This document shows, piece after piece, positions 1,431-14,021 of a DNA stretch of 64,000 bases. Every line of letters starts with the position of its first letter. Within the stretch, counting starts at the first letter, position 1. Source of the stretch: Limobrevibacterium gyesilva (GTDB lineage Bacteria; Pseudomonadota; Alphaproteobacteria; Acetobacterales; Acetobacteraceae); the NCBI RefSeq assembly GCF_025989185.1, contig NZ_JAPDNT010000001.1, positions 248,001 to 312,000 of the forward strand. The letters run 5' to 3'. The position numbers and the translations under genes are program-made. The notes under the pieces were generated by a model. It saw nothing but the letters and a program-made list of their open reading frames with translations. It searched no databases and was not told the origin of the DNA.

Positions 1431-2024
1431 TCATTCGGCAGCGACGTTGACCTCTCCGGCCGAGCGCTCCCTTCGCTGATGGCGCATTTCGCCGCGCTGG
1501 CTGGCAATGCCAAGTTCAAGGCTGTCGGCGATGCGCCGCGCCCGATCCATGAAATGCGCTGCAGCGGCCGGAGGGCAGACCTCTTCTGCGGTCGTTTCGA
1601 AAAGGTCCAGCCACCGTTCGAAGTGGCTGGCATCAATCCTGAGCGGCAGATGTGCCTGCATCGGCTGCCCATGATAGCGGCCCGACATCAGGGCGACTGA
1701 CGACCAGAACGCCTTGAGCTTCTCGATATGCTGATCCCAATCCTCAACCTTCTCGGCAAAGATCGGCGCAAGGAGCGGATCCAGTTGAACGCGCGCATAA
1801 AAGATGGAAACGAGCTCCGCGATCATGGTCTCGTCGATGCCCGTGCGCTGCATGATCCCCTGCGTGATCCGCGCCCGCCGCTCGGGCCCGCCTTCTCGTG
1901 GAGCCGCGCTTTCGGGTCCGTCAGCTGCCATATTCTTCTCCGCCATCCGTTCCATCATCTTGTGGTCAGGCATCCCGTCTTGACCTGTGCGCGGCCTGCT
2001 GCGACTGCCCCAGTCACGTAGCAC
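1431..2024 (-). CDS. group III truncated hemoglobin
   Basis: This is a small globin of the truncated type III family, heme proteins usually linked to nitric oxide or low-oxygen chemistry in the cytoplasm. The globin fold starts near IAELVSIFYARVQ and includes the stretch DPLLAPIFAEKV, then WDQHIEKLKAFWSSV, then the HLPLRIDASHFERWL segment that in this family contains the distal and proximal helices. A GTG start at 2024 is chosen because a strong Shine-Dalgarno, AAGGAGG, sits 8 nt upstream. Internal ATGs at 1973 and further down (with GGAGAA) are alternatives that would remove a poorly conserved N-terminal tail. The C-terminal 20 residues are basic and variable. It is transcribed toward ccoN and has an NsrR-like palindrome at 2173-2195 in front of it. 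Confidence 0.88.
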   Translation of the reverse strand: MLRDWGSRSRPRTGQDGMPDHKMMERMAEKNMAADGPESAAPREGGPERRARITQGIMQRTGIDETMIAELVSIFYARVQLDPLLAPIFAEKVEDWDQHIEKLKAFWSSVALMSGRYHGQPMQAHLPLRIDASHFERWLDLFETTAEEVCPPAAAAHFMDRARRIADSLELGIASQRGEMRHQRRERSAGEVNVAAE

Positions 2025-2172
2025 CCCCCTGTCCTCCTTCGAGAACCGGGTGCGCCGCCTCAGATCCTCGTATATGTCACCGGGACAGCAGCACTCGTCG
2101 TCGGCCCGGATGAGCACATTGATCGTATGCGTCGGATCATCACCATCGGTCGTTAGGCACGTGGTTCACTTA

Positions 2173-2195
2173 AAGGTGTATTTCTTATGCATCTT
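2173..2195. promoter_or_regulatory. NsrR-like operator candidate upstream of the globin gene
   Basis: Two 11-nt half sites, AAGGTGTATTT and (reverse complement) AAGATGCATAA, flank a single C. This is the architecture of the NsrR consensus, with half site close to AAGATGCATTT. NsrR is an Fe-S nitric oxide sensor of the Rrf2 family. It lies 149 bp before the chosen globin start. The match is by eye and no nsrR gene is in the window. Confidence 0.5.
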
Positions 2196-2556
2196 ATATC
2201 TGAAAATCTCAAACGCAAGGGTCAGGAATGGTACCAAGCGCGCGGGATGAACGTGGAAACTACGCGGACAGTCCGCGCGGACCGGCCGATCAGGCGACTG
2301 GTGTGATGCCAAAAATCCGTCCGCGGCAGGACCCAATCTTTCAGTGTGTATTTGTCGAGGGTCGCGATGAAGGCGTCGAGCACCCTTCATCAGATGGGCG
2401 CGGGAGGTGCCATGGGCCTACGCAGCCTCCTCGATCGTGACCAGACACCTACCGCACGGCCACAAACGTCCGGAGGCGTGGCGATAGTGAGAAAAGCTGG
2501 TCAACCGGTGACGACCATCATGGCGTCCCCGGCTGCGGTGGGGAGGTCAAGTTAAA
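2196..2556. other. non-coding stretch between divergent units
   Basis: No convincing gene is seen in any frame. On the minus strand, about 2230-2400, one frame reads as a plausible decayed fragment (LDAFIATLDKYTLKDWVLP), but it has no start or recognisable family. The stretch separates the leftward globin/ccoN unit from the rightward DUF2249 operon. Confidence 0.35.
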
Positions 2557-2575
2557 AGGTATATTGACAATACCT
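2557..2575. promoter_or_regulatory. 19-bp palindrome upstream of the DUF2249 operon
   Basis: AGGTATATTGACAATACCT has perfect arms AGGTAT/ATACCT around 7 nt, the same 6-7-6 layout as at 1282-1300. The spacer contains TTGACA, an ideal -35 hexamer on the plus strand. A bound repressor would therefore block the promoter of the operon that starts at 2705. Confidence 0.45.
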
Positions 2576-2704
2576 CTTTTAGTGCCAAGATCGACTGCGA
2601 GCACAGCGGCCACGCAGCTTTGCCGCTGTGCTGTCTGCGGCGCCCGGCGACGTGTTTGCGATCGTCGGATCAGCCGCCGAGCAGCAACCTCAGGAGTAAA
2701 CCCG

Positions 2705-2965
2705 ATGCCACAGGCCACATCCCACTCAACAGAAAGCATCGTTGACGTCCGGACCCTCGTTCCGGCGCAGCGACACGCGAAAATCTTCGAGCTCGTCAAC
2801 GGTCTCGCTCCCGGAGCGTCGTTCATTCTGGTCAATGACCACGACCCGAAGCCGCTCTACTACCAGTTGGAGGCGGAATACCCGAAGCAGTTCACGTGGA
2901 CCTACGTCGAACGCGGACCGGAGGTGTGGCGTGTCGCGATCGGCAAGATCGCCCAGGCTGCTTGA
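2705..2965 (+). CDS. DUF2249 domain protein
   Basis: An 86-residue cytoplasmic protein consisting of one DUF2249 domain. The family features VDVRTLVPAQRHAKIFELVNGL, the HDPKPL motif after a short strand, and a final VWRVAIGK strand are all present (the first is read in two parts). The biochemical role of DUF2249 is not established. The family is often encoded beside denitrification and nitric oxide genes. The ATG at 2705 has AGGAG 8 nt upstream. It is the first gene of a five-gene rightward operon and sits behind a palindrome that overlaps a TTGACA hexamer. The HDPKPL motif is intact here, whereas both domains of the related protein at 4410 have lost it. Confidence 0.85.
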   Translation: MPQATSHSTESIVDVRTLVPAQRHAKIFELVNGLAPGASFILVNDHDPKPLYYQLEAEYPKQFTWTYVERGPEVWRVAIGKIAQAA

Positions 2966-2980
2966 CCCATATTCGATCGG

Positions 2981-4393
2981 ATGAACGCGTCGGACCGCGC
3001 CTTGTCCGACGCGGTCGCCTCGGAAAGGAACGCAACTTTGCCTGGCGTCTCGCTCTCCCGATGGACGATGTCGTATTTTGCCGCAGGGTTGATGTCGTTC
3101 GCTCTGGCGCAGGGCCTCATGGTGGCGGGATATGGCTACCCCCACGCGCCTGTTGAGGCACCTGAAACACTCGCTTTGGTGCATCTCATCGCGCTTGGTT
3201 GGCTGAGCCTTCTCCTGTGCGGCGCTTTGTTCCAGTTTGTGCCGGTGCTGGTGGCAAAACCGTTGCACGACAACGCGATGCCGCTGCCTACCCTTGTCTG
3301 CCTCCTTATCGGGCTGCTGGCTCTTTTGCTGGGATTTCTGCAACTCGGCGGCCAGATCAGCCTGTCCCTGCCGTTTTTCCCGGTGGCCGCCACACTGCTT
3401 GTTCTCGGCTTCACGCTCGTCCTGTGGAACCTCGGCCGCACCCTTTGGGCTGCGCGCCCCTTGCCGCTGCCGGCGCGCTTCGTTGTGACCGGCCTGTTCG
3501 GTATTGCCGGAACGGTGTTCCTTGGCGCCATCTTCGCTTTGGTTCTCGGCGGGGCGACCTCTCATCCTCACCTCATTGAACTGACCGCCAGGGGTGTCCC
3601 CATTCACGCCATTGCAGGGCTGGGCGGCTGGCTGACGCTTACGGCGATGGGTGTCAGCTATCGGCTTCTGGCGATGTTCATGCTCGCCCCCGAGCTCGAT
3701 CGGCTGTCCAGTCGTCTGGCTTTTCATCTCGGTAGCGGCGCACTGGCAGTCGCTTTCGTTGGCGGCGTGGTTGCGATCTGCTTCGAATGGCGTCTCGATT
3801 TTCCGTTGCTCACGGCAGCCCTGCTCGGCCTTGGCGCGCTCGCCCTTTACGGCAAGGACATGCTGTTCCTCTACCGTGCGCGCAAGCGGCGGACTCTCGA
3901 ACTGAACAGCCGCATGGCCGCTTTCGCGCTTCTATCGCTGGTCCTGGCGGCGGCGCTGGTCGTCGTCACGATTGCTCGTGGTGATTTGTCGACCCATGCC
4001 CCAGCCATCGTTTATCTCGTTGCATTCGGCTGGCTGTCGGGTCTCGGGCTGGCCAAGCTTTACAAAATCGTTGCCTTCCTCACCTGGCTCGAGTGCTACG
4101 GACCGGTCCTGGGCAAGATGCCGACACCACGCGTCCAGGATCTCGTCGTGGAGCCGCGTGCGGTGAAATGGTTCGGGCTCTATTTCCTTGCCGTCTGGGC
4201 AGGCACGGCCGCTCTCCTCTTCGATTATCCAGGAGTGTTCCGCGCCGCCACAGCGCTGTCGCTCATTGCCACGGTTGCAATCGCGATGCAGCTGTTTCGA
4301 ACACGCCGTCTTCGTGACGTGGAGCATGCCACCGCGGTCGCAGCCGGCGCCCGTCGGCCCCGGCTCTTATGGTCGCTATCGCGACAAGCCTGA
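2981..4393 (+). CDS. polytopic membrane protein of a NO/denitrification neighbourhood (NnrS-like or oxidase-I-like)
   Basis: A 470-residue integral membrane protein with about 12 hydrophobic segments between residues 29 and 442. Candidate metal or heme ligands sit in helices: His68 in LVHLIALGW and His209 in PIHAIAGLGGWLTLTAMG. The latter is followed by VSYRLLAMF. Repeated H..(G)GW helices recall the heme-copper oxidase subunit I/NnrS group of membrane proteins linked to nitric oxide handling. I cannot assign one family by eye. The ATG at 2981 has a weak ribosome site. A TTG at 3038 has AAAGGA 8 nt upstream and would remove a polar N-terminus, so the start is uncertain. It lies 15 bp after one DUF2249 gene and 16 bp before another, which suggests a single operon. 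Confidence 0.7.
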   Translation: MNASDRALSDAVASERNATLPGVSLSRWTMSYFAAGLMSFALAQGLMVAGYGYPHAPVEAPETLALVHLIALGWLSLLLCGALFQFVPVLVAKPLHDNAMPLPTLVCLLIGLLALLLGFLQLGGQISLSLPFFPVAATLLVLGFTLVLWNLGRTLWAARPLPLPARFVVTGLFGIAGTVFLGAIFALVLGGATSHPHLIELTARGVPIHAIAGLGGWLTLTAMGVSYRLLAMFMLAPELDRLSSRLAFHLGSGALAVAFVGGVVAICFEWRLDFPLLTAALLGLGALALYGKDMLFLYRARKRRTLELNSRMAAFALLSLVLAAALVVVTIARGDLSTHAPAIVYLVAFGWLSGLGLAKLYKIVAFLTWLECYGPVLGKMPTPRVQDLVVEPRAVKWFGLYFLAVWAGTAALLFDYPGVFRAATALSLIATVAIAMQLFRTRRLRDVEHATAVAAGARRPRLLWSLSRQA

Positions 4394-4409
4394 TACAAAG
4401 GAGAACCTC

Positions 4410-4943
4410 ATGACCACCCCATCCTTCGTCGATCTCGATGTCCGGCCAGTCCTGCGAGCGGGAGGTGAGCCGTTCGGGGCGATCATGGAGGCGATTGCGA
4501 CTCTGAAGCCGGGTCAGGGATTGCGGCTCCTTGCGACGTTCAAGCCGACGCCGCTCTTCCAGGTGCTCAGCTCGCGCGGCTTTGCGCATGAAGCTCGGGA
4601 ACTTGAAGGTGGTGATTGGGAAGTCCTGTTCCGGCCAACCGCGGCGGCGCCGGCCGCTGAGGGCGCGAAGACCGCTCCTTCCGACGATTCCCCCTGGCCC
4701 GAGCCCGTACAGCATCTCGACAACCGTGACCTCGACCCGCCGGAACCAATGGTCCGCATTCTCGCTGCAATCGAAGCCTTGAAGCCGGGGGAGGTTCTTT
4801 CAGCGCTTCTGTGCCGGGAACCCATCTTTCTGTTGCCGGAGCTTGCCAAGCGCGGACACGGTTGGCGTGGAGGGTTCGAAGCTGACGGAAAGACCTATCG
4901 CGTAGAGGTGCGGATCGGTGCGGGTGCGGAGGCAAAGGCATGA
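4410..4943 (+). CDS. two-domain DUF2249 protein
   Basis: A 177-residue protein with two tandem DUF2249 domains joined by a short Ala/Pro linker. The first domain (about 8-75) begins VDLDVRPVLRAGGEPFGAI. The second (about 105-170) begins LDNRDLDPPEPMVRILAAI. In both copies the HDPKPL signature of the family is replaced (FKPTPL and CREPIFL), so the two domains may have lost a ligand-binding function kept by the single-domain paralogue at 2705. The ATG at 4410 has AAAGGAGAA just upstream. The gene overlaps the next one by 4 bp (ATGA), which indicates translational coupling. The function is unknown and is tied by context to the membrane protein and the SufT-like protein. Confidence 0.82.
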   Translation: MTTPSFVDLDVRPVLRAGGEPFGAIMEAIATLKPGQGLRLLATFKPTPLFQVLSSRGFAHEARELEGGDWEVLFRPTAAAPAAEGAKTAPSDDSPWPEPVQHLDNRDLDPPEPMVRILAAIEALKPGEVLSALLCREPIFLLPELAKRGHGWRGGFEADGKTYRVEVRIGAGAEAKA

Positions 4944-5275
4944 GCGCCGCGTTGAATGACGGCCTCCCGGAGCGGATCAAGGATGCGCTGCGCCTCGTGA
5001 TCGATCCCGAGCTCGGATACAATATCGTCGACCTTGGTCTCGTCTACGACGTTAGCGTCGACGACAGCGGTGAGGCACGCGTCATCATGACGACAACGAC
5101 GCGTGGATGCCCAGCGACCGGCTACCTCAAGGACGGTGCTCGTGACAGTGTCGAGGCCACAGCGGGGGTCACTTCTGTCGACGTCGTACTGACGTATGAC
5201 CCGCCATGGACACCGAGAATGATGAGCGCCGATGCAAAGCGACACCTTGGCATTGCCGAGGGAGAGGGTTGGTGA
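4940..5275 (+). CDS. SufT/PaaD-like iron-sulfur assembly factor (DUF59/MIP18 family)
   Basis: A 111-residue protein of the MIP18 family. Members act in iron-sulfur cluster maturation or delivery. The hallmark IDPELGYNIVDLGLVYDV carries the conserved DPE and GL motifs. The reactive cysteine follows in TTTTRGCPATGYL. The C-terminal part carries VDVVLTYDPPWTP, also typical. The gene overlaps its upstream DUF2249 partner (ATGA) and its downstream 78-residue neighbour (GTGA). Translation coupling across three genes suggests they act together, perhaps to mature or repair a metal centre damaged by nitric oxide, but that role is inference. Family assignment is strong. Confidence 0.9.
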   Translation: MSAALNDGLPERIKDALRLVIDPELGYNIVDLGLVYDVSVDDSGEARVIMTTTTRGCPATGYLKDGARDSVEATAGVTSVDVVLTYDPPWTPRMMSADAKRHLGIAEGEGW

Positions 5276-5508
5276 ACGAACCTGCTCTGCCGCCGCCGCG
5301 CAGCGGCGCCGCCGACGGCTTCGCTGTGACCGTTGGGCTCGACGACCTTCTTCTTGATAGCCTCGCGCGCCTGGCTGCCGCCGGCGAAGTCGAGGCCGCG
5401 TGTCGCCTTGCAGGCAAGGCGTGCCAGCTACAGCGCCGAAGCAATGAAAGATCGGCGCACCGGTTCAACGCACTGCTGCATCGGCTGACGCCGCAGCTTC
5501 AATGGTGA
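5272..5508 (+). CDS. small unknown protein, last gene of the DUF2249 operon
   Basis: A 78-residue soluble protein that I do not recognise. The GTG start at 5272 overlaps the stop of the SufT-like gene (GTGA), and GAGGGAGAGGG lies just upstream, so translation is well supported. The middle, about 20-55, reads as amphipathic helix (LDDLLLDSLARLAAAG, then EVEAACRLAGKACQLQ) with two cysteines, and the end is basic (HRFNALLHRLTP). The helix pair resembles a TPR-like or adaptor unit. Its position in the operon suggests a role in the same nitrosative-stress or metal-centre function. Confidence 0.65.
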   Translation: MNEPALPPPRSGAADGFAVTVGLDDLLLDSLARLAAAGEVEAACRLAGKACQLQRRSNERSAHRFNALLHRLTPQLQW

Positions 5509-5541
5509 CAGGCAGCGCGGTAGGGCCGTGGGTTCCATGGA

Positions 5542-6246
5542 TCAACCGTTGGCCGAATCCTCCACCAGGATGGTGATATGCAAACTATAGGGCAGTTCTC
5601 CATCTTCGCCGTAGTACTGCTTCCCTGGAGAATGATCACCAGTCCGCGCGGCGTTACGCGCCGTGTACGGCGCGAGGGGTTCGATCCCAAAAGACTGGTT
5701 GTTAACTGTTCCGGGCGCATCGTTGCCGGCTCGCGCAGTTTCTGCCGCGGGTATCGCGCGCCGCGCATCAGGCACAACAGGACGCGATGTCTGGCGCAGT
5801 AGCGCGATGAGTTCGGGACTCGTGTATTCCACACGACCGGGTCTGCGGCGGTCGGGCACCCGCGGCGATGTCAGAGCAGGATTGGCCGATCCCCTGTTGA
5901 TTTGCGCAGCCGCTGGCGTCAGGGAAAGCTGCTGCCGGATCCCCTTGATCTGGAGCGCGTCCAATGCCGATGCAGGTGCATGATCCGAGGCAACGATGGG
6001 CGGGAGCGTCGGAATGTCCACATCCGTCGCATGCACCTTGTTCCCCAGAGACTGACCGGGGAGACACGACACTATATTAGCCAACGGATCTGGGAATGCC
6101 CGCTGACGTTCCTGACGGCAAAGCTCGAGCTCCACTGCCCAAGGAATGTGGGGATAGCGCCGCGCGGTCGGCTCCTGAGCGGCCGGATCGTATGACAAGC
6201 GATCAGGCAAGGGGCGCCATATCATTGCCCTCTCCGAGTCGGACAT
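5542..6246 (-). CDS. hypothetical protein, unrecognised
   Basis: An open frame of 234 codons with no recognised domain. It is Pro/Ala/Arg-rich with little predicted structure, has no signal peptide or membrane segment, and ends in a more ordered stretch, LPYSLHITILVEDSANG. A possible ribosome site, GAGGCGG, lies 11 nt before the ATG. No competing gene exists on either strand. Local GC is lower than in the neighbours, which would fit acquired DNA or a decaying region. It could equally be a chance open frame in GC-rich DNA, so confidence is low. Confidence 0.35.
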   Translation of the reverse strand: MSDSERAMIWRPLPDRLSYDPAAQEPTARRYPHIPWAVELELCRQERQRAFPDPLANIVSCLPGQSLGNKVHATDVDIPTLPPIVASDHAPASALDALQIKGIRQQLSLTPAAAQINRGSANPALTSPRVPDRRRPGRVEYTSPELIALLRQTSRPVVPDARRAIPAAETARAGNDAPGTVNNQSFGIEPLAPYTARNAARTGDHSPGKQYYGEDGELPYSLHITILVEDSANG

Positions 6247-6465
6247 CTGCGACAGCCGCCTCGCAAGCTTGCGACAGAAATTCCCACAAATTCATCCAGT
6301 GGATGACACTTAATCACTGACGAGCAGACGATTCAGATATGAATCCAGTCCAACAGCTAGCAGACTGGCATCAAATTTCGATTAAGAAACCCTACATCGT
6401 CGGCCACCCGCCCGCTTCACCGATGACGCGTAGGACACCCGCCGATCCCGAGGCTCGGGACAGCA

Positions 6466-9012
6466 TCATCGCGTCTGGCGCCTCTGCAGATCCAAGACCA
6501 GAATGCGAAGCTGCGGGTCTGCAGGGGAGAGCGTTAACAGCTCCCGCGCGTGCAGGAGTGCCGTGGCAAAATCACCCTGGGCCCGTGCGATCGAGACCAA
6601 GGCAGCAAGCACATCCCTGTCCGTCGGATGCTGTCGGTGAGTGCGCTCCAGCAGCGCTATTGCCTGCCGGGGCTCGCCGGAGGAATTCAGGGCGATGGCG
6701 TAGACGTAGGCATAGCGCGCATTGTCGGGCGCCAGCTCGCTCGCCTGCCGGAGCAGCCCCAGCGCCTCGGTATAGTTATGTTGGCGCACCAACAGCAGTC
6801 CGAGGGAATGCCGGACATCCGCATTGTTCGGGTCGATCGCCAGCGCCTTGCGCAGCAGTTCCGCCCCTTGCTGGTCCATGCCGCGCATCCGGTCGAGATC
6901 GGCAAGGTTTGCTAGCGCAGGCACGAAGTCAGGGGCCAGGCGCAGCGCCGTCCGGTACTCCGCTTCCGCATCGCCCAACTGCCCCCGGCGCGTATTCAGC
7001 AGGCCCAGGTTGAGATGCGCCTCGGGTCGATCGGCGTCGATCATCTCGGCGGCGATCAATTCCTGATAGGCGGCGTTGAAGGCGTTCCGCTGTCCCGGGC
7101 TCGTGGTGCGGGGATCGACCCCGGCAAGGGCACGCGCCGCCTCGATGCGAACCGCCCGGACGGGGTCGCTCAGCAACGACATGGCCGCCTGAACGGTGAC
7201 TGCCGACGCCGCAGCCGAGAGCGCGCGTGGCGCCGCCAATCGGACCAGCGGGTTGGGGTCGGCGATCCCCTTCAGGACCGCGGGTTCGGAAGCGGGAGAC
7301 GTGTAGCGCGGCAGCAGCAGCAAGGCGCTCGCCCGCGCGATCGCCGGCTGGCTCTGGTCCAGAATCAGGCGATCGAGCTGCTGCTCGGCGTCCCTTGCCC
7401 CGGTTCGGCCAGCGTCGAGCGCGGTGCCATAATGTGCGGTGGTCTGCCGCCCGTGCGGAAACCACCCTGCGGCTACCTGCGCGGCCCACTCGGGCGGGCG
7501 GCCAGCATGGCATTGGGTGCATGCATTGGGCGTGCCGATCGATACCGACAGGTCCGGCCGCGGGACGCGGAAGCTGTGGTCGCGCCGGGTATCAATCACC
7601 ATGTAGGTTTTCGTCGGCATATGGCAGTTCACGCATTGTGCGCCGGTGCCGCCAGGCTGGTGATGGTGGTGCGCGGGCACATCGAACTTCGCGGGCATAT
7701 GGCACTGAGCGCACAGGGAGTTGCCTTCCGCGCGCAGCTTCAGGCTATGCGGGTCATGACAATTGGAGCAGGTGACGCCTGCGAAATGCATGCGGCTTTG
7801 CACGAAGGAGCCGTATTCATAGACCTCTCCGTCGATCTGACCGTCGGCGTGATAGAGGCCAGGCTCAAGCAGCGCGGGCAAATACGAATCGAGGAACGGC
7901 GCACCAGCCGGGGCGTTTGTGGCGACCGTCTTCCGCCGGGAATGGCATCCCGCGCAAGCGTCGAGCTCCGCGGAGACGAGCGGCTCCGTGCGCCGTGCGA
8001 TGCCCGTCTCGGGCTGCATTTCCCAACGGCCGTGGTCGGTCGCCTTCAACCAGGCGACAATGCCCATTCGGTCCTGCGCGCCGGGACCGGATGCGTCCGT
8101 CCGTGCCGCATACGGTCCGGCACCCGGATGGTCCCTGGCCCAGGCAACATGGCGGGAGCCCGGGCCGTGACACGACTCGCAGGACACATCCACGTCGCTC
8201 CATGTGGTCGCATAGGTGTTCGTGCCGAGGTCGTAGTTCTTCCTGACGCCGGTCGAGTGGCAATCGGCACACATATAGTTCCAGGTCTGGTCGCGCCCGC
8301 TCCAGTGCAGTGGTCCGCCTGCCGGCAGCTTCTGATCGGGGTAGAGGTGGAACCAACGCTCGCCGCCCTGATCCTTCGGCCGGCTGTCCCATGCGATACC
8401 CAACGCCTGCAGCCGGCCGCCTGGCATGGCGATCAGGTATTGCTGCAGTGGGTAGACGCCGAACGTATAGGCGATCTCATAGTCGTGTAGGGCGCCGTCG
8501 GGACCGTCGGTCCGCACCATGAACGTGGCGCCGGCGCGGCTGAAAGTGGTCGCGACGCCGAAGTGCTCGAGACCAGCGCCGGAGAAATCGCCGAGGACAG
8601 TTGCCTCCGTGGCGCGCTGCATGGCGAGCGCATGGTGCGATCCTTCCCAACGCTCGGCTTCGGCCTGGTGGCAGCCGGCGCATGTCTGGGTGCCGACAAA
8701 GCTCACCGGCTCGTCCGCCCGCGCGCCACCCCCTTGGGTCAATGCCAAGCACGCGGCCAACAGAAGAACCGAAACGAGCGCAACGGCGGGCCGAGTTGAA
8801 GCTGTGGGTGAAGTCTCCGCAGCGCGCGTGCCGCCACTGGGAGCGGCCGCACGAAGCTTGGGCAGGATATCAGAAGGCGATGCCAACGCCCGGTACCGGG
8901 GCAATGGCAGGACATTGCCGCTGATGGTCTGCGTGCTGGCGGGCGAGGATGCATCCACCTCGCCGTTCCTTGAGCTGCATGCGGAGTGCCCAGCCTCGTG
9001 GTTCGGGACCAT
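6466..9012 (-). CDS. octaheme c-type cytochrome with HEAT and TPR repeats
   Basis: An exported multiheme cytochrome for periplasmic electron transfer. Eight CxxCH motifs occur at residues about 111, 248, 278, 353, 415, 434, 460 and 498, which predicts eight covalently bound hemes. A His-rich loop (HHHHQPGG) lies near 448. After the heme region come HEAT-like helical repeats (about 540-640) and then TPR-like repeats (about 655-845, e.g. AHLNLGLLNTRRGQLGDAE). This suggests a protein-binding platform attached to the electron-transfer domain. The export signal is the hydrophobic stretch at about 75-98. It is preceded by about 75 polar residues, so the true start is probably internal and not fixed here. 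No partner oxidoreductase is adjacent, and the electron donor and acceptor are unknown. Confidence 0.85.
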   Translation of the reverse strand: MVPNHEAGHSACSSRNGEVDASSPASTQTISGNVLPLPRYRALASPSDILPKLRAAAPSGGTRAAETSPTASTRPAVALVSVLLLAACLALTQGGGARADEPVSFVGTQTCAGCHQAEAERWEGSHHALAMQRATEATVLGDFSGAGLEHFGVATTFSRAGATFMVRTDGPDGALHDYEIAYTFGVYPLQQYLIAMPGGRLQALGIAWDSRPKDQGGERWFHLYPDQKLPAGGPLHWSGRDQTWNYMCADCHSTGVRKNYDLGTNTYATTWSDVDVSCESCHGPGSRHVAWARDHPGAGPYAARTDASGPGAQDRMGIVAWLKATDHGRWEMQPETGIARRTEPLVSAELDACAGCHSRRKTVATNAPAGAPFLDSYLPALLEPGLYHADGQIDGEVYEYGSFVQSRMHFAGVTCSNCHDPHSLKLRAEGNSLCAQCHMPAKFDVPAHHHHQPGGTGAQCVNCHMPTKTYMVIDTRRDHSFRVPRPDLSVSIGTPNACTQCHAGRPPEWAAQVAAGWFPHGRQTTAHYGTALDAGRTGARDAEQQLDRLILDQSQPAIARASALLLLPRYTSPASEPAVLKGIADPNPLVRLAAPRALSAAASAVTVQAAMSLLSDPVRAVRIEAARALAGVDPRTTSPGQRNAFNAAYQELIAAEMIDADRPEAHLNLGLLNTRRGQLGDAEAEYRTALRLAPDFVPALANLADLDRMRGMDQQGAELLRKALAIDPNNADVRHSLGLLLVRQHNYTEALGLLRQASELAPDNARYAYVYAIALNSSGEPRQAIALLERTHRQHPTDRDVLAALVSIARAQGDFATALLHARELLTLSPADPQLRILVLDLQRRQTR

Positions 9013-9315
9013 AGGAGCGCGTGACGCCGGTTGTCAGGTAAACATCGCGAAGACCGAACTGGCCCCGGACACCGGGGTCATGCCGGCTCTGGGGGCCTTT
9101 CAACGCGCACACGGACGACTTCTTGGTCGACGGCCGGGCGCTCGAAGCCGAGTTGCCGGCAGACCTCTGCGGTTGCCATCGCGGCGCCCTGCTTCCGCGG
9201 CGCCCCGAGAAGGCGTTCGCGGGGCTCAGGCCAGCCCTGCAGAATCGCTATTGCGAATCAATTGCAATTACCCTAGCTAGGATACGTTGGACCATGGTTG
9301 GAGGATGGTTTCGGC
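9013..9315. other. intergenic region between the octaheme gene and bfd
   Basis: No gene is supported. The region ends with the Fur-like palindrome at 9250-9268 and the bfd ribosome site. A minus-strand frame through 8870-9112 ends in GVGIAF, like an outer-membrane barrel terminus, but has no further support. Confidence 0.4.
9250..9268. promoter_or_regulatory. Fur-box-like palindrome upstream of bfd-bfr
   Basis: ATTGCGAATCAATTGCAAT is a 19-bp imperfect palindrome (seven of nine base pairs, central C). The layout and TTGC/GCAA arms resemble alphaproteobacterial Fur-type sites. It lies 47 bp upstream of bfd, the first gene of an iron storage and uptake locus. Iron control is inferred. Confidence 0.5.
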
Positions 9316-9513
9316 GTGTACATCTGCATCTGCAATGCGCTGACCGACAGCCATGTGAAGCAGGCCATCGGCGAGGCCGGCTCGACGCGGCCAAGCGAAG
9401 TGTACGCTGCCTGCGGCTGCCGGGCGCAGTGCGGCAACTGCGTGAAGAAGCTGCTGGGGATCCTTCGCGACCTCGCCGACCAGGGCGCCGGCGAACTGCA
9501 AGGCGCGGACTGA
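9316..9513 (+). CDS. bfd: bacterioferritin-associated ferredoxin
   Basis: A 65-residue [2Fe-2S] protein that delivers electrons to bacterioferritin so that stored ferric iron can be released. With the GTG start at 9316 the cluster cysteines fall at 4, 6, 39 and 42 (CIC ... CGNC), the spacing of the known Bfd fold. This supports that start over an in-frame TTG at 9298. Two further cysteines, 33 and 35, are present. GGAGG lies 11 nt upstream of the GTG, slightly long. The gene sits directly before bfr, its functional partner, and behind a Fur-like palindrome. Induction under iron limitation is therefore expected. Confidence 0.92.
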   Translation: MYICICNALTDSHVKQAIGEAGSTRPSEVYAACGCRAQCGNCVKKLLGILRDLADQGAGELQGAD

Positions 9514-9586
9514 ACCGCTCGCCCGGGACTCTGGACGGCGGGGTAAGCAACACTGCTTCCTATCGGCGAACACACAGGAGAGCCCC

Positions 9587-10075
9587 ATGTTGCGAGACCC
9601 GAAAGTCGTCGAATATCTCAACACGCAGCTGACCAACGAGCTGACCGCCATCAACCAGTATTTCCTGCACGCCCGCACTTTGCGGCATTGGGGCGTGACC
9701 AGGCTCGGACAGCACGAATACGCCGAATCAATCGACGAGATGAAGCATGCGGACGCGTTGATCGAGCGCATCCTGTTCCTCGATGGCCTTCCGAACGTGC
9801 AGCGGCTGAACCCGATCGCGGTCGGCGAGTCCGTCGAAGAGATCCTGAGGGCTGACCTTCAATTGGAGGAGAAGGCGCTGGACGATCTGCGCGAGGGCAT
9901 CGCCTATTGCGAGGGCGTGCGGGACTTCGTGTCCCGCGACCTGCTGCAGGGCATTCTCGCCAGCGAGGAAGAGCATGTCGACTTCCTCGACCGGCAGTTC
10001 GATCTGATCGAGCGCATTGGCATCGAGCGCTACATCCTTCTGAACGCTGCACCGGCGCCCGAGCAGGAGGCGTAG
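9587..10075 (+). CDS. bfr: bacterioferritin
   Basis: A 162-residue ferritin-family subunit that assembles into a 24-mer iron-storage shell. All six ferroxidase-centre ligands are present at the standard positions: Glu18, Glu51, His54, Glu94, Glu127 and His130. Met52, the axial ligand of the inter-subunit heme, is in IDEMKHAD. It is therefore a true heme bacterioferritin and not a Dps or a heme-free ferritin. The ATG at 9587 has AGGAGAG upstream. It follows bfd by 73 bp and precedes an iron importer, so storage, release and uptake are grouped. A few C-terminal residues (APAPEQEA) are an unstructured tail. Confidence 0.96.
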   Translation: MLRDPKVVEYLNTQLTNELTAINQYFLHARTLRHWGVTRLGQHEYAESIDEMKHADALIERILFLDGLPNVQRLNPIAVGESVEEILRADLQLEEKALDDLREGIAYCEGVRDFVSRDLLQGILASEEEHVDFLDRQFDLIERIGIERYILLNAAPAPEQEA

Positions 10076-10253
10076 GCCGGCCGCAGCTGCGCCCGGCTCG
10101 CATGCGTCGGCAACGGCGGCGTCGGTCATGCGCAGGCGCCCGAGGACATTTGATGAAAACACCATCGGCGATGTTGCCGACGCTTGACAGGCCAGGGTGC
10201 TTCGGCCGATATGCTGAGTTGCGACTGCCTCTCAATTGCAAGAAAGTTTCACG

Positions 10254-11282
10254 ATGACCCTGATGAACCGGCGAGCCCTGGTACGCACCGGGCTCGGCAT
10301 GTGTGGCGCTGCCCTCGCCTTCGCGGCGAAGCCTGGCGAAGCAGTAGCCGCGGACCAGGAAGCCCTGGTTCTCTATAGCGGGCAGCATCGCCAGACGACG
10401 GAGGCGCTGGTCGCCGCTTTCACCAAAGCGACGGGCATCAAGGTCACGGTGCGCAATGGCGAAAGCCCGCAGCTTGCCGGCCAGCTGCTTGAAGAGGGTG
10501 AGCGCAGCCCCGCCGACCTGTTCTATTCCGAGACAAGCCCGCCCATCGCGGCCCTGGAGGCCAAGGGAATGCTCGCGCCGATCGAGGCGGGCACCCTGCA
10601 GCAGATTCCTGCGGCCTACTCCGCCCGGACCGGGACCTGGGTTGGCAGCACCGTGCGCTGCCGCATCGTGGCGTACAATAAAAAGATGGTCGCTCCGGAC
10701 CAGCTCCCCGCCTCCGTGCTGGATTGCGCAACCTCTGCCTGGCAGGGCCGGGTGGCGTATGTGCCAAAGGACGGTTTCCAGGAACAGGTAATGGCGATTG
10801 CGCATGTCAAAGGACGCGACGCGGCGCTCGCCTGGCTCAAGGGTCTGAAGCAATATGCCCGCGCCTACAACTCCAACTCCGCTGCCATGCGCGCGGTCGA
10901 GGCGGGCGAGATCGCCACGGCGCTGACCAACCATTATTATTGGTACAGCCTGGCCAGAGAGGCCGGCGCGGACCGGTTGAACTCGGCACTCCATTATGTC
11001 GCCAGGCAGGACGTCGGCGCGCTGCGCACGGTATCGGCCGCCGGCATCCTGAAGACGACGAAGAAGGCCGCGATCACGCAGCGCTTCCTGGCCTTCATGG
11101 TCAGCGAGGACGGCCAGAGAGCGATCGCCGGATCTGTCGCGGAATACCCGGTGCGGCCGGGCGTCGCGTCCCCCTTCCCGCTGCGGCCGCTCGAAGACTT
11201 CGCGGGAGCCCCGGTCACCGCCGCCGATATCGGTAGCGCCGCGGACGCTTATGCCCTGCAGCGCGAGGCCGGAATCGCTTGA
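10254..11282 (+). CDS. fbpA: periplasmic ferric iron-binding protein of an ABC importer
   Basis: A 342-residue substrate-binding protein of the FbpA/AfuA type. The N-terminus has a twin-arginine-like export signal (NRRALVRTGLG then a hydrophobic run to AVAAD). The mature part starts LVLYSGQHRQTTEALVAAF, typical of ferric-binding proteins. The iron-ligand region with adjacent tyrosines is in ALTNHYYWYSLA. ATG at 10254 is chosen; ATG at 10263 and an upstream TTG at 10236 are alternatives. It delivers Fe3+ to the permease encoded next and probably belongs to the same unit as bfd-bfr or has its own promoter in the 178-bp gap. A 6-bp tandem repeat follows the stop codon. Confidence 0.9.
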   Translation: MTLMNRRALVRTGLGMCGAALAFAAKPGEAVAADQEALVLYSGQHRQTTEALVAAFTKATGIKVTVRNGESPQLAGQLLEEGERSPADLFYSETSPPIAALEAKGMLAPIEAGTLQQIPAAYSARTGTWVGSTVRCRIVAYNKKMVAPDQLPASVLDCATSAWQGRVAYVPKDGFQEQVMAIAHVKGRDAALAWLKGLKQYARAYNSNSAAMRAVEAGEIATALTNHYYWYSLAREAGADRLNSALHYVARQDVGALRTVSAAGILKTTKKAAITQRFLAFMVSEDGQRAIAGSVAEYPVRPGVASPFPLRPLEDFAGAPVTAADIGSAADAYALQREAGIA

Positions 11283-11285
11283 GCG

Positions 11286-11330
<45 letters not shown>

Positions 11331-11337
11331 ATTGAGC

Positions 11338-12885
11338 ATGCAATTGCGCGCCAGGGGGCTGCGACCGGCGCCATCTCCCTGGCTCGTACTCCTGGCCGCT
11401 ATTCCGATAGGCCTGGTCATCCTGCCCATGGGCTACATACTCGGACGGGCCTGGGACGCAGGTCCGGCCGGTCTGTGGTCGGAGCTCGCACGGCCCTACA
11501 CGATGGGCCTGCTGGTCAATACGGTCACCTTGGCCGTTTCGGTGACGGCTGGGGCCGCGGTGCTCGGCACGGCTGCAGCCTGGTGCACGGAGCGGTGCGA
11601 CCTGCCGGGGCGGCAGATCTGGCGGATCGTGACGAGCCTGCCGCTCGCCATGCCCGCCTTCGTGGCCAGCTACGCCTGGGCGTCACTCGGCCCCTGGTTC
11701 CAGGGGATGCTCGGCGCGGTGGTGATCCTTACCCTGTCCAGCATGCCGCTGATCTATCTGCCGGTCGCGGCTGCGCTGCGCGGCATGGATCCGAGCCTGG
11801 AGGACGTTGCCCGCTCTCTCGGGCATGGGCCGTGGCGCTGCTTTTTCCGGATCGTGCTGCCGCAGGCCCTGCCGGCGCTCGGCGGTGGTGCATTGCTGGT
11901 TGCGTCGCACATGCTGGCGGAATTCGGTGCGCTGTCGCTGCTGCGTGTGCAGACCTTCACCACCGCGATTTTCGATCAGTACCAGATGCAGTTCAATCCG
12001 TCCGCCGCGGCGCTGCTCGCCGCCGGGTTGATGGCCTTGAGCTTGCCGATCGCCTTCGCTGAGATGCGCCTGCGCCACGGTAGGCGCTTCGCCAGGGTCG
12101 GACGCGGCAATTCCCGCCGGCTGCCGCTTTCGCCGCTTGGCCGGCTGAAGCCCGTGGTCCTGGCGGGCTTTGCCGGCACCGCGGCGCTCTCTCTTGGCGT
12201 ACCACTCATGACCCTCGGCTTTTGGCTCTGGCATGGCAGTTCCGCCGGGCGTGGCGTGGGCACGATCGTGCCCGCGCTGCTCGGCTCGCTGAGCCTCGCT
12301 TTGCCCGGCGCCGTGCTGACCACCCTGTTCGCCGTGCCGCTGGTGATGCTCTCGATCCGCTACCAGGGCCGGCTCACCGCTTTGGCCGATCGCTTGCCCT
12401 ATGTCGTGCACGGCCTGCCGGGCATCGGTGTGGCCCTCGCCCTCGTGTTCCTGTCGGTCCACTACGCACCGGCGATCTATCAGACGCGCCTGCTCGTGCT
12501 GCTGGCCTATACGGTGCTGTTCCTGCCGCTGGCGCAGTCGTCCCTGCGCGCCTCGGCGGAGCTGGTGCCGCCGGGTCTTGAGGACGTGGCGCGCAGCCTG
12601 GGCCGGGGTCCCTTCCTCGCCTTCCTGACGGTGACGCTGCCCAATCTCGCGCCTGGTGTCGGTGCGGCGCTGGCATTGGTCACCTTGCAGCTGATGCGGG
12701 AGCTGACGGCGACACTGTTGCTGGCCTCGTCCGACGTGACCACGCTGGCGACTGAACTCTGGTCCTACACCGGCGAGGTCGCCTATGCAGCGGCGGCCCC
12801 CTTCGCCGCGGCTCTGGTGTTGATCTCCGGTGTGCCCGTATATGTGTTCACGCTGCGCACCCTGAATGTCGATGAGCCGCGATGA
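11338..12885 (+). CDS. fbpB: ferric iron ABC importer permease, two fused transmembrane domains
   Basis: A 515-residue inner-membrane protein made of two homologous permease domains, the usual form of FbpB. Each carries the EAA loop that docks on the ATPase: EDVARSLGHGPWRCFFRIVL (about 160) and EDVARSLGRGPFLAFLTVTL (about 417). Roughly 12 membrane segments are present. The ATG at 11338 gives a normal N-terminus. An in-frame start further left would add a Gly-His repeat encoded by the hexanucleotide array, which is unlikely but possible. No clear ribosome site precedes the ATG. Translation may be coupled to short ATG-GGC frames in the repeat. It overlaps fbpC by 4 bp. Confidence 0.92.
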   Translation: MQLRARGLRPAPSPWLVLLAAIPIGLVILPMGYILGRAWDAGPAGLWSELARPYTMGLLVNTVTLAVSVTAGAAVLGTAAAWCTERCDLPGRQIWRIVTSLPLAMPAFVASYAWASLGPWFQGMLGAVVILTLSSMPLIYLPVAAALRGMDPSLEDVARSLGHGPWRCFFRIVLPQALPALGGGALLVASHMLAEFGALSLLRVQTFTTAIFDQYQMQFNPSAAALLAAGLMALSLPIAFAEMRLRHGRRFARVGRGNSRRLPLSPLGRLKPVVLAGFAGTAALSLGVPLMTLGFWLWHGSSAGRGVGTIVPALLGSLSLALPGAVLTTLFAVPLVMLSIRYQGRLTALADRLPYVVHGLPGIGVALALVFLSVHYAPAIYQTRLLVLLAYTVLFLPLAQSSLRASAELVPPGLEDVARSLGRGPFLAFLTVTLPNLAPGVGAALALVTLQLMRELTATLLLASSDVTTLATELWSYTGEVAYAAAAPFAAALVLISGVPVYVFTLRTLNVDEPR

Positions 12886-14021
12886 GTCGTTTACGTGTGA
12901 ATGGGCTGCGCAAGCGCTACGACCGGCAGCCGGTGCTCGATGGCGTCGATCTGGAGCTGGCGGAGGGCTGCATCGTCGCCGTGCTTGGCGCCTCCGGCTG
13001 CGGCAAGACCACGCTGCTGCGCCTTGTTGCCGGCTTCGACCGGGTCGATGACGGCGAGATCGCCATCGGCGGCGACCTCGTTGCGTCGGCTGGCCTGCAC
13101 GTGCCGCCGGAGCGCCGGCGCATCGGCTACGTGCCGCAGGAGGGCGCGCTGTTTCCGCACCTCACCGTGGCGGAAAACGTCGCCTTCGGTCTGGACCGGA
13201 GCGAGCGGCGCAGCGGGCGGGTCGAGGAGGTGCTGCGTTTGACGGGGATGCAGGGCCTGGACCGGCGCTATCCGAACGAGCTGTCCGGCGGCCAGCAGCA
13301 ACGCGCCGCGCTCGCCCGCGCGCTGGCTCCACGGCCCGCGCTGGTGTTGCTGGACGAGCCCTTCAATGCCCTCGACCTGGAACTGCGACGCACCGTCTGC
13401 GAGGACGTCATCGCCGCCATCCGCGTCGCCGGCGCCACTGCCGTCTTGGTCACGCATGATCCGCAGGAAGCCTTCGCCAGCGCCGACCGCCTCGCGATCA
13501 TGCGCGCGGGCCTGGTGGCACAGTGCGACCACCCCGCCATGGTCTATCACGCGCCCGTTGATCCTGCCGTCGCGCGACTGACGGGTGCGGCGGTGTTCCT
13601 GGACGCGACACTCAGCGACGGCGGCGCCGAGACGGCGCTTGGCCGGGTCAGGCTCCACCCGGGCTGCCCGATGCCGGCCGGGCCGGCGGTGGTTCTGCTG
13701 CGGCCGGAACAGGTTGCCCTCGCCCCGCCCGGCCAGGGCGTTGCAGGGGGGGTGGTGGCGCGGGCTTTCCGCGGCGACCACACGCTCGTGACCGTCGCGT
13801 TGGAGGGCATGCAATTGCAGCTGCGCCTGGCAGATGCCCCGCCCCTTGGTGCGGTGGTGCACCTGCGCGTAACCGGTGCATGTGCGGCCTTCCCGCCGAA
13901 CGCGATGCCGGCTGGTGCCGCTCAGAGTATTTCATCTGCCGGACGTGACGTGCCCGTCGCGGTGCCTGCCGCCGCTCGAGATCCTTTACCAGCATACCCG
14001 GCCGTGCATCAGCGGGCGTGA
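12882..14021 (+). CDS. fbpC: ferric iron ABC importer ATPase
   Basis: A 379-residue ABC ATPase that powers Fe3+ import. Walker A is GASGCGKT (36-43), the signature LSGGQ is at 134-138, and Walker B VLLDEP is at about 154-159, followed by the switch histidine in LVTHDPQEA. A C-terminal regulatory TOBE-like region (about 240-345) has the ALVVLLRPEQVAL type strand (here AVVLLRPEQVAL). The last 40 residues are a Pro/Ala-rich tail beyond the normal family end. It overlaps fbpB (ATGA), so the permease and ATPase are translationally coupled. The gene ends convergently with repA, with two palindromes in between. Confidence 0.93.
   Translation: MSRLRVNGLRKRYDRQPVLDGVDLELAEGCIVAVLGASGCGKTTLLRLVAGFDRVDDGEIAIGGDLVASAGLHVPPERRRIGYVPQEGALFPHLTVAENVAFGLDRSERRSGRVEEVLRLTGMQGLDRRYPNELSGGQQQRAALARALAPRPALVLLDEPFNALDLELRRTVCEDVIAAIRVAGATAVLVTHDPQEAFASADRLAIMRAGLVAQCDHPAMVYHAPVDPAVARLTGAAVFLDATLSDGGAETALGRVRLHPGCPMPAGPAVVLLRPEQVALAPPGQGVAGGVVARAFRGDHTLVTVALEGMQLQLRLADAPPLGAVVHLRVTGACAAFPPNAMPAGAAQSISSAGRDVPVAVPAAARDPLPAYPAVHQRA

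Follow-up and report, generated by a model that had tools for sequence, protein, structure and literature searches.

Proteins of the DUF2249 family, which we take to be the same as COG4309, recur in bacterial and haloarchaeal islands for denitrification and nitrate respiration without a known function. Pei et al. are said to have described, in 2014, membrane proteins with heme-copper oxidase (HCO) homology, the HCOH proteins, which reportedly have two conserved histidines, a denitrification context and DUF2249 neighbours and may include the exact family studied here. COG4309 genes have been placed in NsrR and NnrR regulons and are co-transcribed with nor (PMC1274295). We analysed a 64,000-nucleotide stretch of the Limobrevibacterium gyesilva genome (contig NZ_JAPDNT010000001.1, positions 248,001 to 312,000; hereafter the window), in which five genes at 2705-5508 encode a single DUF2249 protein, a membrane protein, a tandem (double) DUF2249 protein, a SufT-like protein and a small protein of 78 amino acids (aa). 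The original prediction, made from the letters of the window, had named them the best candidate for an undescribed system. They are not entirely undescribed: the COG4309 regulons (PMC1274295), DrpA/DrpB (PMC6282519) and the Nfu_N-SufT fusion (PMC4982691) are known separately, as reportedly are HCO homologues with DUF2249 neighbours. A description of these parts as one module was found neither in our searches of the open-licence literature nor in the available text of PMC6710368.

The five genes lie on the plus strand with short gaps, and the final three are joined by overlaps of 4 base pairs (bp), ATGA at 4940-4943 and GTGA at 5272-5275 (Table 1), so that the predicted layout is borne out by both coordinates and overlap sequences. 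A plasmid search with the membrane protein gave 112 records and a scan of genome contigs gave 372 relatives; 5 plasmid records and the 80 best of the 372 genome relatives make up the 85 loci compared here, some genomes contributing two. By tblastn, with queries taken partly from L011, L012 and L014, which therefore match by construction, the double DUF2249 gene is present in 85/85 loci, the SufT-like gene in 80, the single DUF2249 gene in 59 (either strand, anywhere in the locus) and relatives of the 78-aa gene in 46 (E <= 1e-4). The single DUF2249 gene stands directly upstream on the same strand in 53 of the 85 loci (54 including the window), and the 4-bp overlap of the double DUF2249 and SufT-like genes is found again in 48/80 loci. 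By their record titles, the loci belong to Alpha-, Beta- and Gammaproteobacteria. The relatives of the 78-aa gene have a common sequence pattern and a C-terminal helix rich in leucine and arginine; it is a real gene, and its product is probably helical, with no Pfam family at E <= 1 for either this protein or the membrane protein. Gene order and linkage are far above chance, and the module is very likely a real unit. The original prediction had staked its case on the five families co-occurring elsewhere, and across the 85 loci they do so as a unit. The membrane protein is sparsely distributed: a survey of the class found it in 4/385 sampled genomes, too few for a presence/absence test, and none of the 60 nearest genomes has it except the window's own.

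A palindrome with the consensus AGATRTATTGACAATAYATCT recurs in the regions upstream of the modules: of 84 such regions, 42 have it at <=5 mismatches and 36 at <=3, while the reversed pattern occurs in none. This count omits 2 of the 85 loci whose module begins near a contig edge. Its 7-5-7 geometry is the same as that of the published NsrR motif gATGyAT-N5-ATrCATc (PMC1274295). Among the 78 genome loci covered by the test for FNR/NnrR-type sites, TTGN8CAA is found in 24 of the 37 without a palindrome (1.7 expected by shuffling) versus 4 of the 41 with one. The genes for regulators are divided likewise: Crp/Fnr genes accompany 22/37 palindrome-less versus 6/41 palindrome-bearing loci, and Rrf2 genes 19/41 palindrome-bearing versus 7/37 palindrome-less loci. 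In all, 26/80 loci have an Rrf2 gene, and NsrR is the best NCBIfam match for five of the six Rrf2 proteins tested. Elsewhere in these loci, the palindrome also stands ahead of ccoN, ferredoxin, DUF6522 and DUF2249 genes. The regulator genes thus vary with the class of site, and the module appears to have come under one or the other of two regulators responding to nitrogen oxides (N-oxides); its control by N-oxide regulators is likely. NsrR/NnrR-type control is thus shared with the described COG4309 regulons; the membrane and SufT-like partners are unnamed in the available text of that study (PMC1274295). The window module has a putative NsrR-type operator upstream (2557-2577), which is the only site at <=3 mismatches in the 5.37-Mb genome (reversed-pattern control 0) and is absent from 100 shuffles of the window.

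On annotated plasmids, the block is found inside nor/nirK/nnrS islands, beside nos genes, or near nnrS and nosR, and nap or nar are also among the neighbours in several loci. Within about 8-12 kb, the neighbours include NosZ in 13, NirK in 12, CcoN in 11 and NorB in 7 of the 85 loci. NirK scores over its cut-off in 31 of 50 module genomes (those of 50 of the 80 loci, picked mostly in list order) versus 15 of 240 class genomes, a comparison in which taxonomy is uncontrolled. Together with the upstream sites, these neighbours strengthen the link to N-oxides that had been predicted. Two further families recur beside the module in loci L016-L095, DUF6522 (17/80) and a DUF1971 cupin (15/80), the latter presumably the family of Escherichia coli YeaR.

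The SufT-like protein has the PF01883 domain and the conserved cysteine of SufT/MIP18 proteins, Cys57 being present in 81/81 sequences. Its earlier label is correct at the domain level, though no NCBIfam SufT/PaaD equivalog model reaches its curated cut-off on this protein (93.5 bits for TIGR02945, cut-off 143.4; 77.9 bits for TIGR03406, cut-off 202.6). In 16/80 loci an N-terminal Nfu_N region is fused to the protein (phmmer), and two of the fusions were confirmed by Pfam (E 7.9e-21 and 2.2e-24). These fusions and the PF01883 domain strengthen the predicted link to iron-sulfur (Fe-S) clusters. A supposed extra gene between the double DUF2249 and SufT-like genes was rejected, as it belongs to the gene of a longer SufT-like protein, whose Nfu_N region it encodes. 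An Nfu_N-SufT fusion in Oligotropha carboxidovorans has been cited in favour of a function of Nfu and SufT in Fe-S maturation (PMC4982691), and in a mycobacterium SufT depletion leads to less Fe-S repair and lower survival under nitric oxide (NO) (PMC9045647). The module protein has PF01883 (DUF59), the invariant cysteine and the Nfu_N-SufT fusion in common with these systems (PMC4982691, PMC9045647), and differs in being encoded outside suf operons, within a module of N-oxide type.

The membrane protein was modelled with AlphaFold2 from 41 sequences (40 of 56 usable loci and the window; loci without the WTM motif or a clear start were excluded), which gave twelve long helices at pLDDT 90.6 and pTM 0.89. 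The top Foldseek matches are the catalytic subunits of cbb3 oxidase and NO reductase (3mk7_A, E 1.6e-6; 4xyd_A, E 2.3e-6), and a second structural aligner gave Z 34.1 against cbb3, with a root-mean-square deviation of 3.3 over 400 residues. Weak hhalign matches of the family to small NnrS, NorB and CcoN alignments left its assignment unsettled; since the fold comparison settled it, the membrane protein is, judged by its predicted structure, a remote HCO homologue with the 12-helix fold of subunit I. A COX1 profile matches 5 of the 41 members directly (best E 6.7e-4), and a sequence search of the PDB with the membrane protein gave no match. True HCOs have six metal-ligand histidines; the 41 sequences have only two invariant ones, His68 and His209, both of which are also present in the Thermus relative described below, and so lack the ligand set of a catalytic HCO or NO reductase. 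Because of the HCO fold and these two histidines, a heme partner is plausible, which lends credit to the heme part of its predicted role as a heme/NO partner. In the register of the GW motif, His68 lies six and His209 eight residues ahead of W, comparable to His413/His411 of the CcoN from the same genome. HCO subunit I has a three-fold pseudo-symmetry, and with this symmetry the motif register would orient both His68 and His209 towards the pore that lies between the first and second four-helix units and contains no heme in oxidases. The module protein shares with the HCOH proteins, as reportedly described, the HCO fold, two conserved histidines, the denitrification context and the DUF2249 association, while the SufT-like/Nfu_N partner, the 78-aa protein and the operator come from the present analysis. 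NnrS, a heme-type membrane protein of N-oxide regulons, likewise has 12 helices, but NnrS identity was rejected: none of the 41 members matches Pfam NnrS (PF05940) at E <= 1, and hhalign against four NnrS sequences gave E 0.14.

Both window DUF2249 proteins score over the Pfam cut-off for the family (PF10006). The original prediction that only the single protein, not the double one, retains the HDP motif was borne out well beyond the window, HDP being present (as DHDPxPL) in 54/54 single and in 0/86 tandem proteins, window included. The tandem protein also matches Pfam TusA above the cut-off (E 4.6e-9), most strongly in its second copy, and its model is nearest to TusA, weakly (best TusA match in Foldseek 3lvj_C, E 4.6e-3, TMt 0.79; no match reaches E <= 0.001). 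The catalytic cysteine of TusA is lacking: among 42 tandem proteins no cysteine is invariant or nearly invariant, and sulfur transfer via such a residue is therefore unlikely. A PDB sequence search with the single DUF2249 protein gave no match. A cysteine-rich C-terminal tail is present in rhizobial single DUF2249 proteins (L012, L013 and L015; 3/54) and not in the window protein.

In Thermus, the proteins matched by the tandem protein (36.8% identity, E 1e-16) are encoded after narGHJIKT and resemble DrpB in size and domain content (DUF1858 and two DUF2249). The genes downstream encode a COX1-like protein of 144 aa, a protoglobin, a membrane protein of 383 aa and, with a 4-bp overlap, a metal-sulfur cluster assembly factor. 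The 383-aa protein is homologous to the membrane family of the window (hhalign 98.6%, E 5.1e-16, 294 columns) and is nearly whole in 14 Thermus plasmid records; in strain HB8 it is matched over residues 253-383 only, and the SufT-like gene kept beside this remnant is TTHB138, of solved structure (2cu6). The Thermus drp locus thus comprises six genes, including an HCO-fold protein and a TTHB138-type SufT (L103 7510-11308; L107 3662-7460), and the drpAB nitrate-respiration locus is, judging by homology, a distant version of the module. The two have in common the single and tandem DUF2249 genes, an orthologous two-histidine membrane protein and a PF01883 protein with a 4-bp overlap; they differ in the extra DUF1858 of DrpB and in the protoglobin and 144-aa COX1-like protein added in Thermus. 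The available text of PMC6282519 discusses drpA and drpB alone.

We propose that the module is an accessory operon, responsive to NO and other N-oxides, that maintains the assembly or repair of Fe-S, and perhaps also of heme, respiratory enzymes, a reading to which we give an even chance. NO (or nitrite) would relieve an NsrR-type repressor or activate an NnrR-type factor; the SufT-like protein would pass on or re-insert Fe-S clusters, with the DUF2249 proteins linking it to its targets as adaptors without catalytic activity; and the membrane protein would bind one heme via His68/His209, anchor the complex at the membrane, and sense NO or supply electrons. The original prediction of repair or maturation at NO-damaged centres gains support in its direction from the N-oxide control sites and the Fe-S link, and its repair biochemistry stays a proposal, as do the heme, cluster-transfer and complex steps set out here. 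A bolder form, which we advance tentatively, is a membrane-docked machine for both Fe-S repair and insertion in N-oxide-stressed respiration, extending from Proteobacteria to Thermus, in which a dead HCO relative would hold one heme in the pore that is heme-free in true oxidases (as NO sensor or electron inlet), dead TusA-like DUF2249 proteins would be adaptors and an Nfu/MIP18-type protein would carry the cluster; DrpA/DrpB would be parts of it, and the nitrate-sensing effect published for them would follow from enzyme maturation having failed. In either form, bringing DUF2249 together with a cluster-transfer protein and an oxidase-like heme candidate yields a testable hypothesis linked to existing Thermus mutants and, if true, would add an Fe-S maintenance arm to the N-oxide responses, of which Hmp, NnrS and RIC are known components.

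Other readings divide the same evidence differently. A sensor or regulator module, in which the DUF2249 proteins and a heme-bearing membrane protein would detect nitrate or NO and adjust transcription accordingly, would suit both the general knowledge that two-histidine heme proteins can be gas sensors and the presence of DrpA/DrpB-type genes, for which such a role has been proposed: deletions of drpA and drpB change the activity of Pnar and Pdnr and abolish the nitrate dependence of NarG (PMC6282519). We consider it unlikely, as a PF01883 protein with an optional Nfu_N domain would be an odd part of a sensor, the control sites suit the module as a target of known N-oxide regulators, and in Thermus brockianus plasmid pTF21c the six-gene block is surrounded by genes for sugar and carboxylate transport, the 13 kb inspected containing no nar gene. 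Moreover, the drpAB double mutant of Thermus NAR1 makes at least the wild-type amount of NarG, most of it inactive (90 versus 900 U with nitrate, none without; PMC6282519), and these numbers suggest that the inactivity may come from failed cofactor maturation. A factor devoted to the biogenesis of a single respiratory enzyme (cNOR/qNOR, cbb3, Nar or Nos), rather than general repair, is doubtful: Rodionov et al. proposed a relevance of COG4309 to NO reductase (PMC1274295), and cco, nos, nor, nirK or nar genes do adjoin different loci, but the neighbour counts given above leave no enzyme common to the loci, and L. gyesilva itself has no NirK over the cut-off or clear cNOR. A chance neighbourhood of unrelated genes is refuted, for practical purposes, by the linkage and by overlaps that recur from Proteobacteria to Thermus, and we regard it as vanishingly improbable.

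Several points weigh against the proposed maintenance operon. The drp authors interpret their mutants, with promoter data, as having lost nitrate sensing at the transcriptional level; single drpA mutants have about wild-type activity under anoxia with nitrate; and the authors place DrpA in the periplasm, a poor fit to a cytosolic Fe-S role (all PMC6282519). PF01883 proteins serve other roles too, and PaaD models also match the window protein. The SufT-like gene is missing in 5/85 loci (in one of them on a contig that ends there), Agrobacterium lacks the membrane and SufT-like genes but retains the two DUF2249 genes, and several loci (e.g. L019, L024, L028, L030 and L033) are without any queried denitrification gene. 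NirK is over the cut-off in only one of the four module genomes of the class sample, G221, in which its gene adjoins the membrane gene, and not in that of the window. The palindrome consensus was derived from the same loci in which it was counted, and all tested Rrf2 matches are under the NsrR equivalog cut-off, the intact Rrf2 protein of L. gyesilva scoring 138 bits for RirA versus 131 for NsrR, both below cut-off. Close relatives are over-represented among the 80 best loci, and the Fisher p values ignore relatedness, treating genomes as independent.

Table 1. Features of the window in and around the five-gene module
Feature	Position	Strand	Evidence
Single DUF2249 protein of DrpA/COG4309 type, 86 aa, retaining DHDPKPL	2705..2965	+	Pfam PF10006 E 1.1e-30
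Membrane protein, 470 aa, 12 predicted helices, predicted heme-copper-oxidase fold; His68 and His209 the only invariant histidines	2981..4393	+	
Tandem DUF2249 protein, 177 aa, TusA-like domains, HDP lost in both	4410..4943	+	Pfam DUF2249 E 1.3e-38 (two stretches)
SufT/MIP18-type protein (PF01883), 111 aa, invariant Cys57	4940..5275	+	FeS_assembly_P E 2.7e-18
Small protein, 78 aa, GTG start, 78 codons	5272..5508	+	tblastn relatives in 46/85 loci
NsrR-type palindromic operator candidate AGGTATATTGACAATACCTCT	2557..2577	.	TTGACA (-35-like hexamer) inside
Decayed nsrR-like Rrf2 gene	2309..2507	-	tblastn pieces
Globin (bacterial-like/truncated haemoglobin)	1431..1853	-	Pfam PF01152 E 4.8e-8

The own-genome searches gave no NirK over the cut-off (best match 37 bits; NirS, NosZ, qNOR and Nar were not searched) and no clear cNOR (NorB alignment match 24.5 bits). 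On these matches, the module here is not part of a NirK/cNOR denitrification island, and the N-oxides may therefore come from outside or from enzymes outside the search. A scan of 2000-6400 for sigma-70 promoters found no promoter-like sites. Between the palindrome and the globin gene, the decayed nsrR-like gene has a recognisable start and end, with the middle gone and one in-frame stop; its tblastn pieces are 2507-2364 (E 5e-7 with L026, 9e-6 with L017) and 2386-2309 (E 0.001 to 0.008). Because this local gene is decayed, expression of the module in L. gyesilva may be constitutive or under another Rrf2 factor. An intact Rrf2 gene is present on contig 56 of the same genome, its product 52% identical to the L017 protein; this gene (L097 1091-1980) overlaps an upstream open reading frame that is globin-like by eye and has no Pfam match. 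Globin relatives are found in 10/85 module loci, and the globin neighbour may be part of the same response. Upstream of the globin gene, on the minus strand, are the cbb3 oxidase genes ccoNOP, DUF2189 and ccoI. On the other side, the minus strand at 6466-9012, adjoining the module, encodes a large protein that combines cytochrome c554/CXXCH regions with TPR repeats, and the region 9298-14021 contains a BFD-like ferredoxin gene (Pfam) followed by open reading frames that resemble, by eye only, bacterioferritin and an iron ABC transporter.

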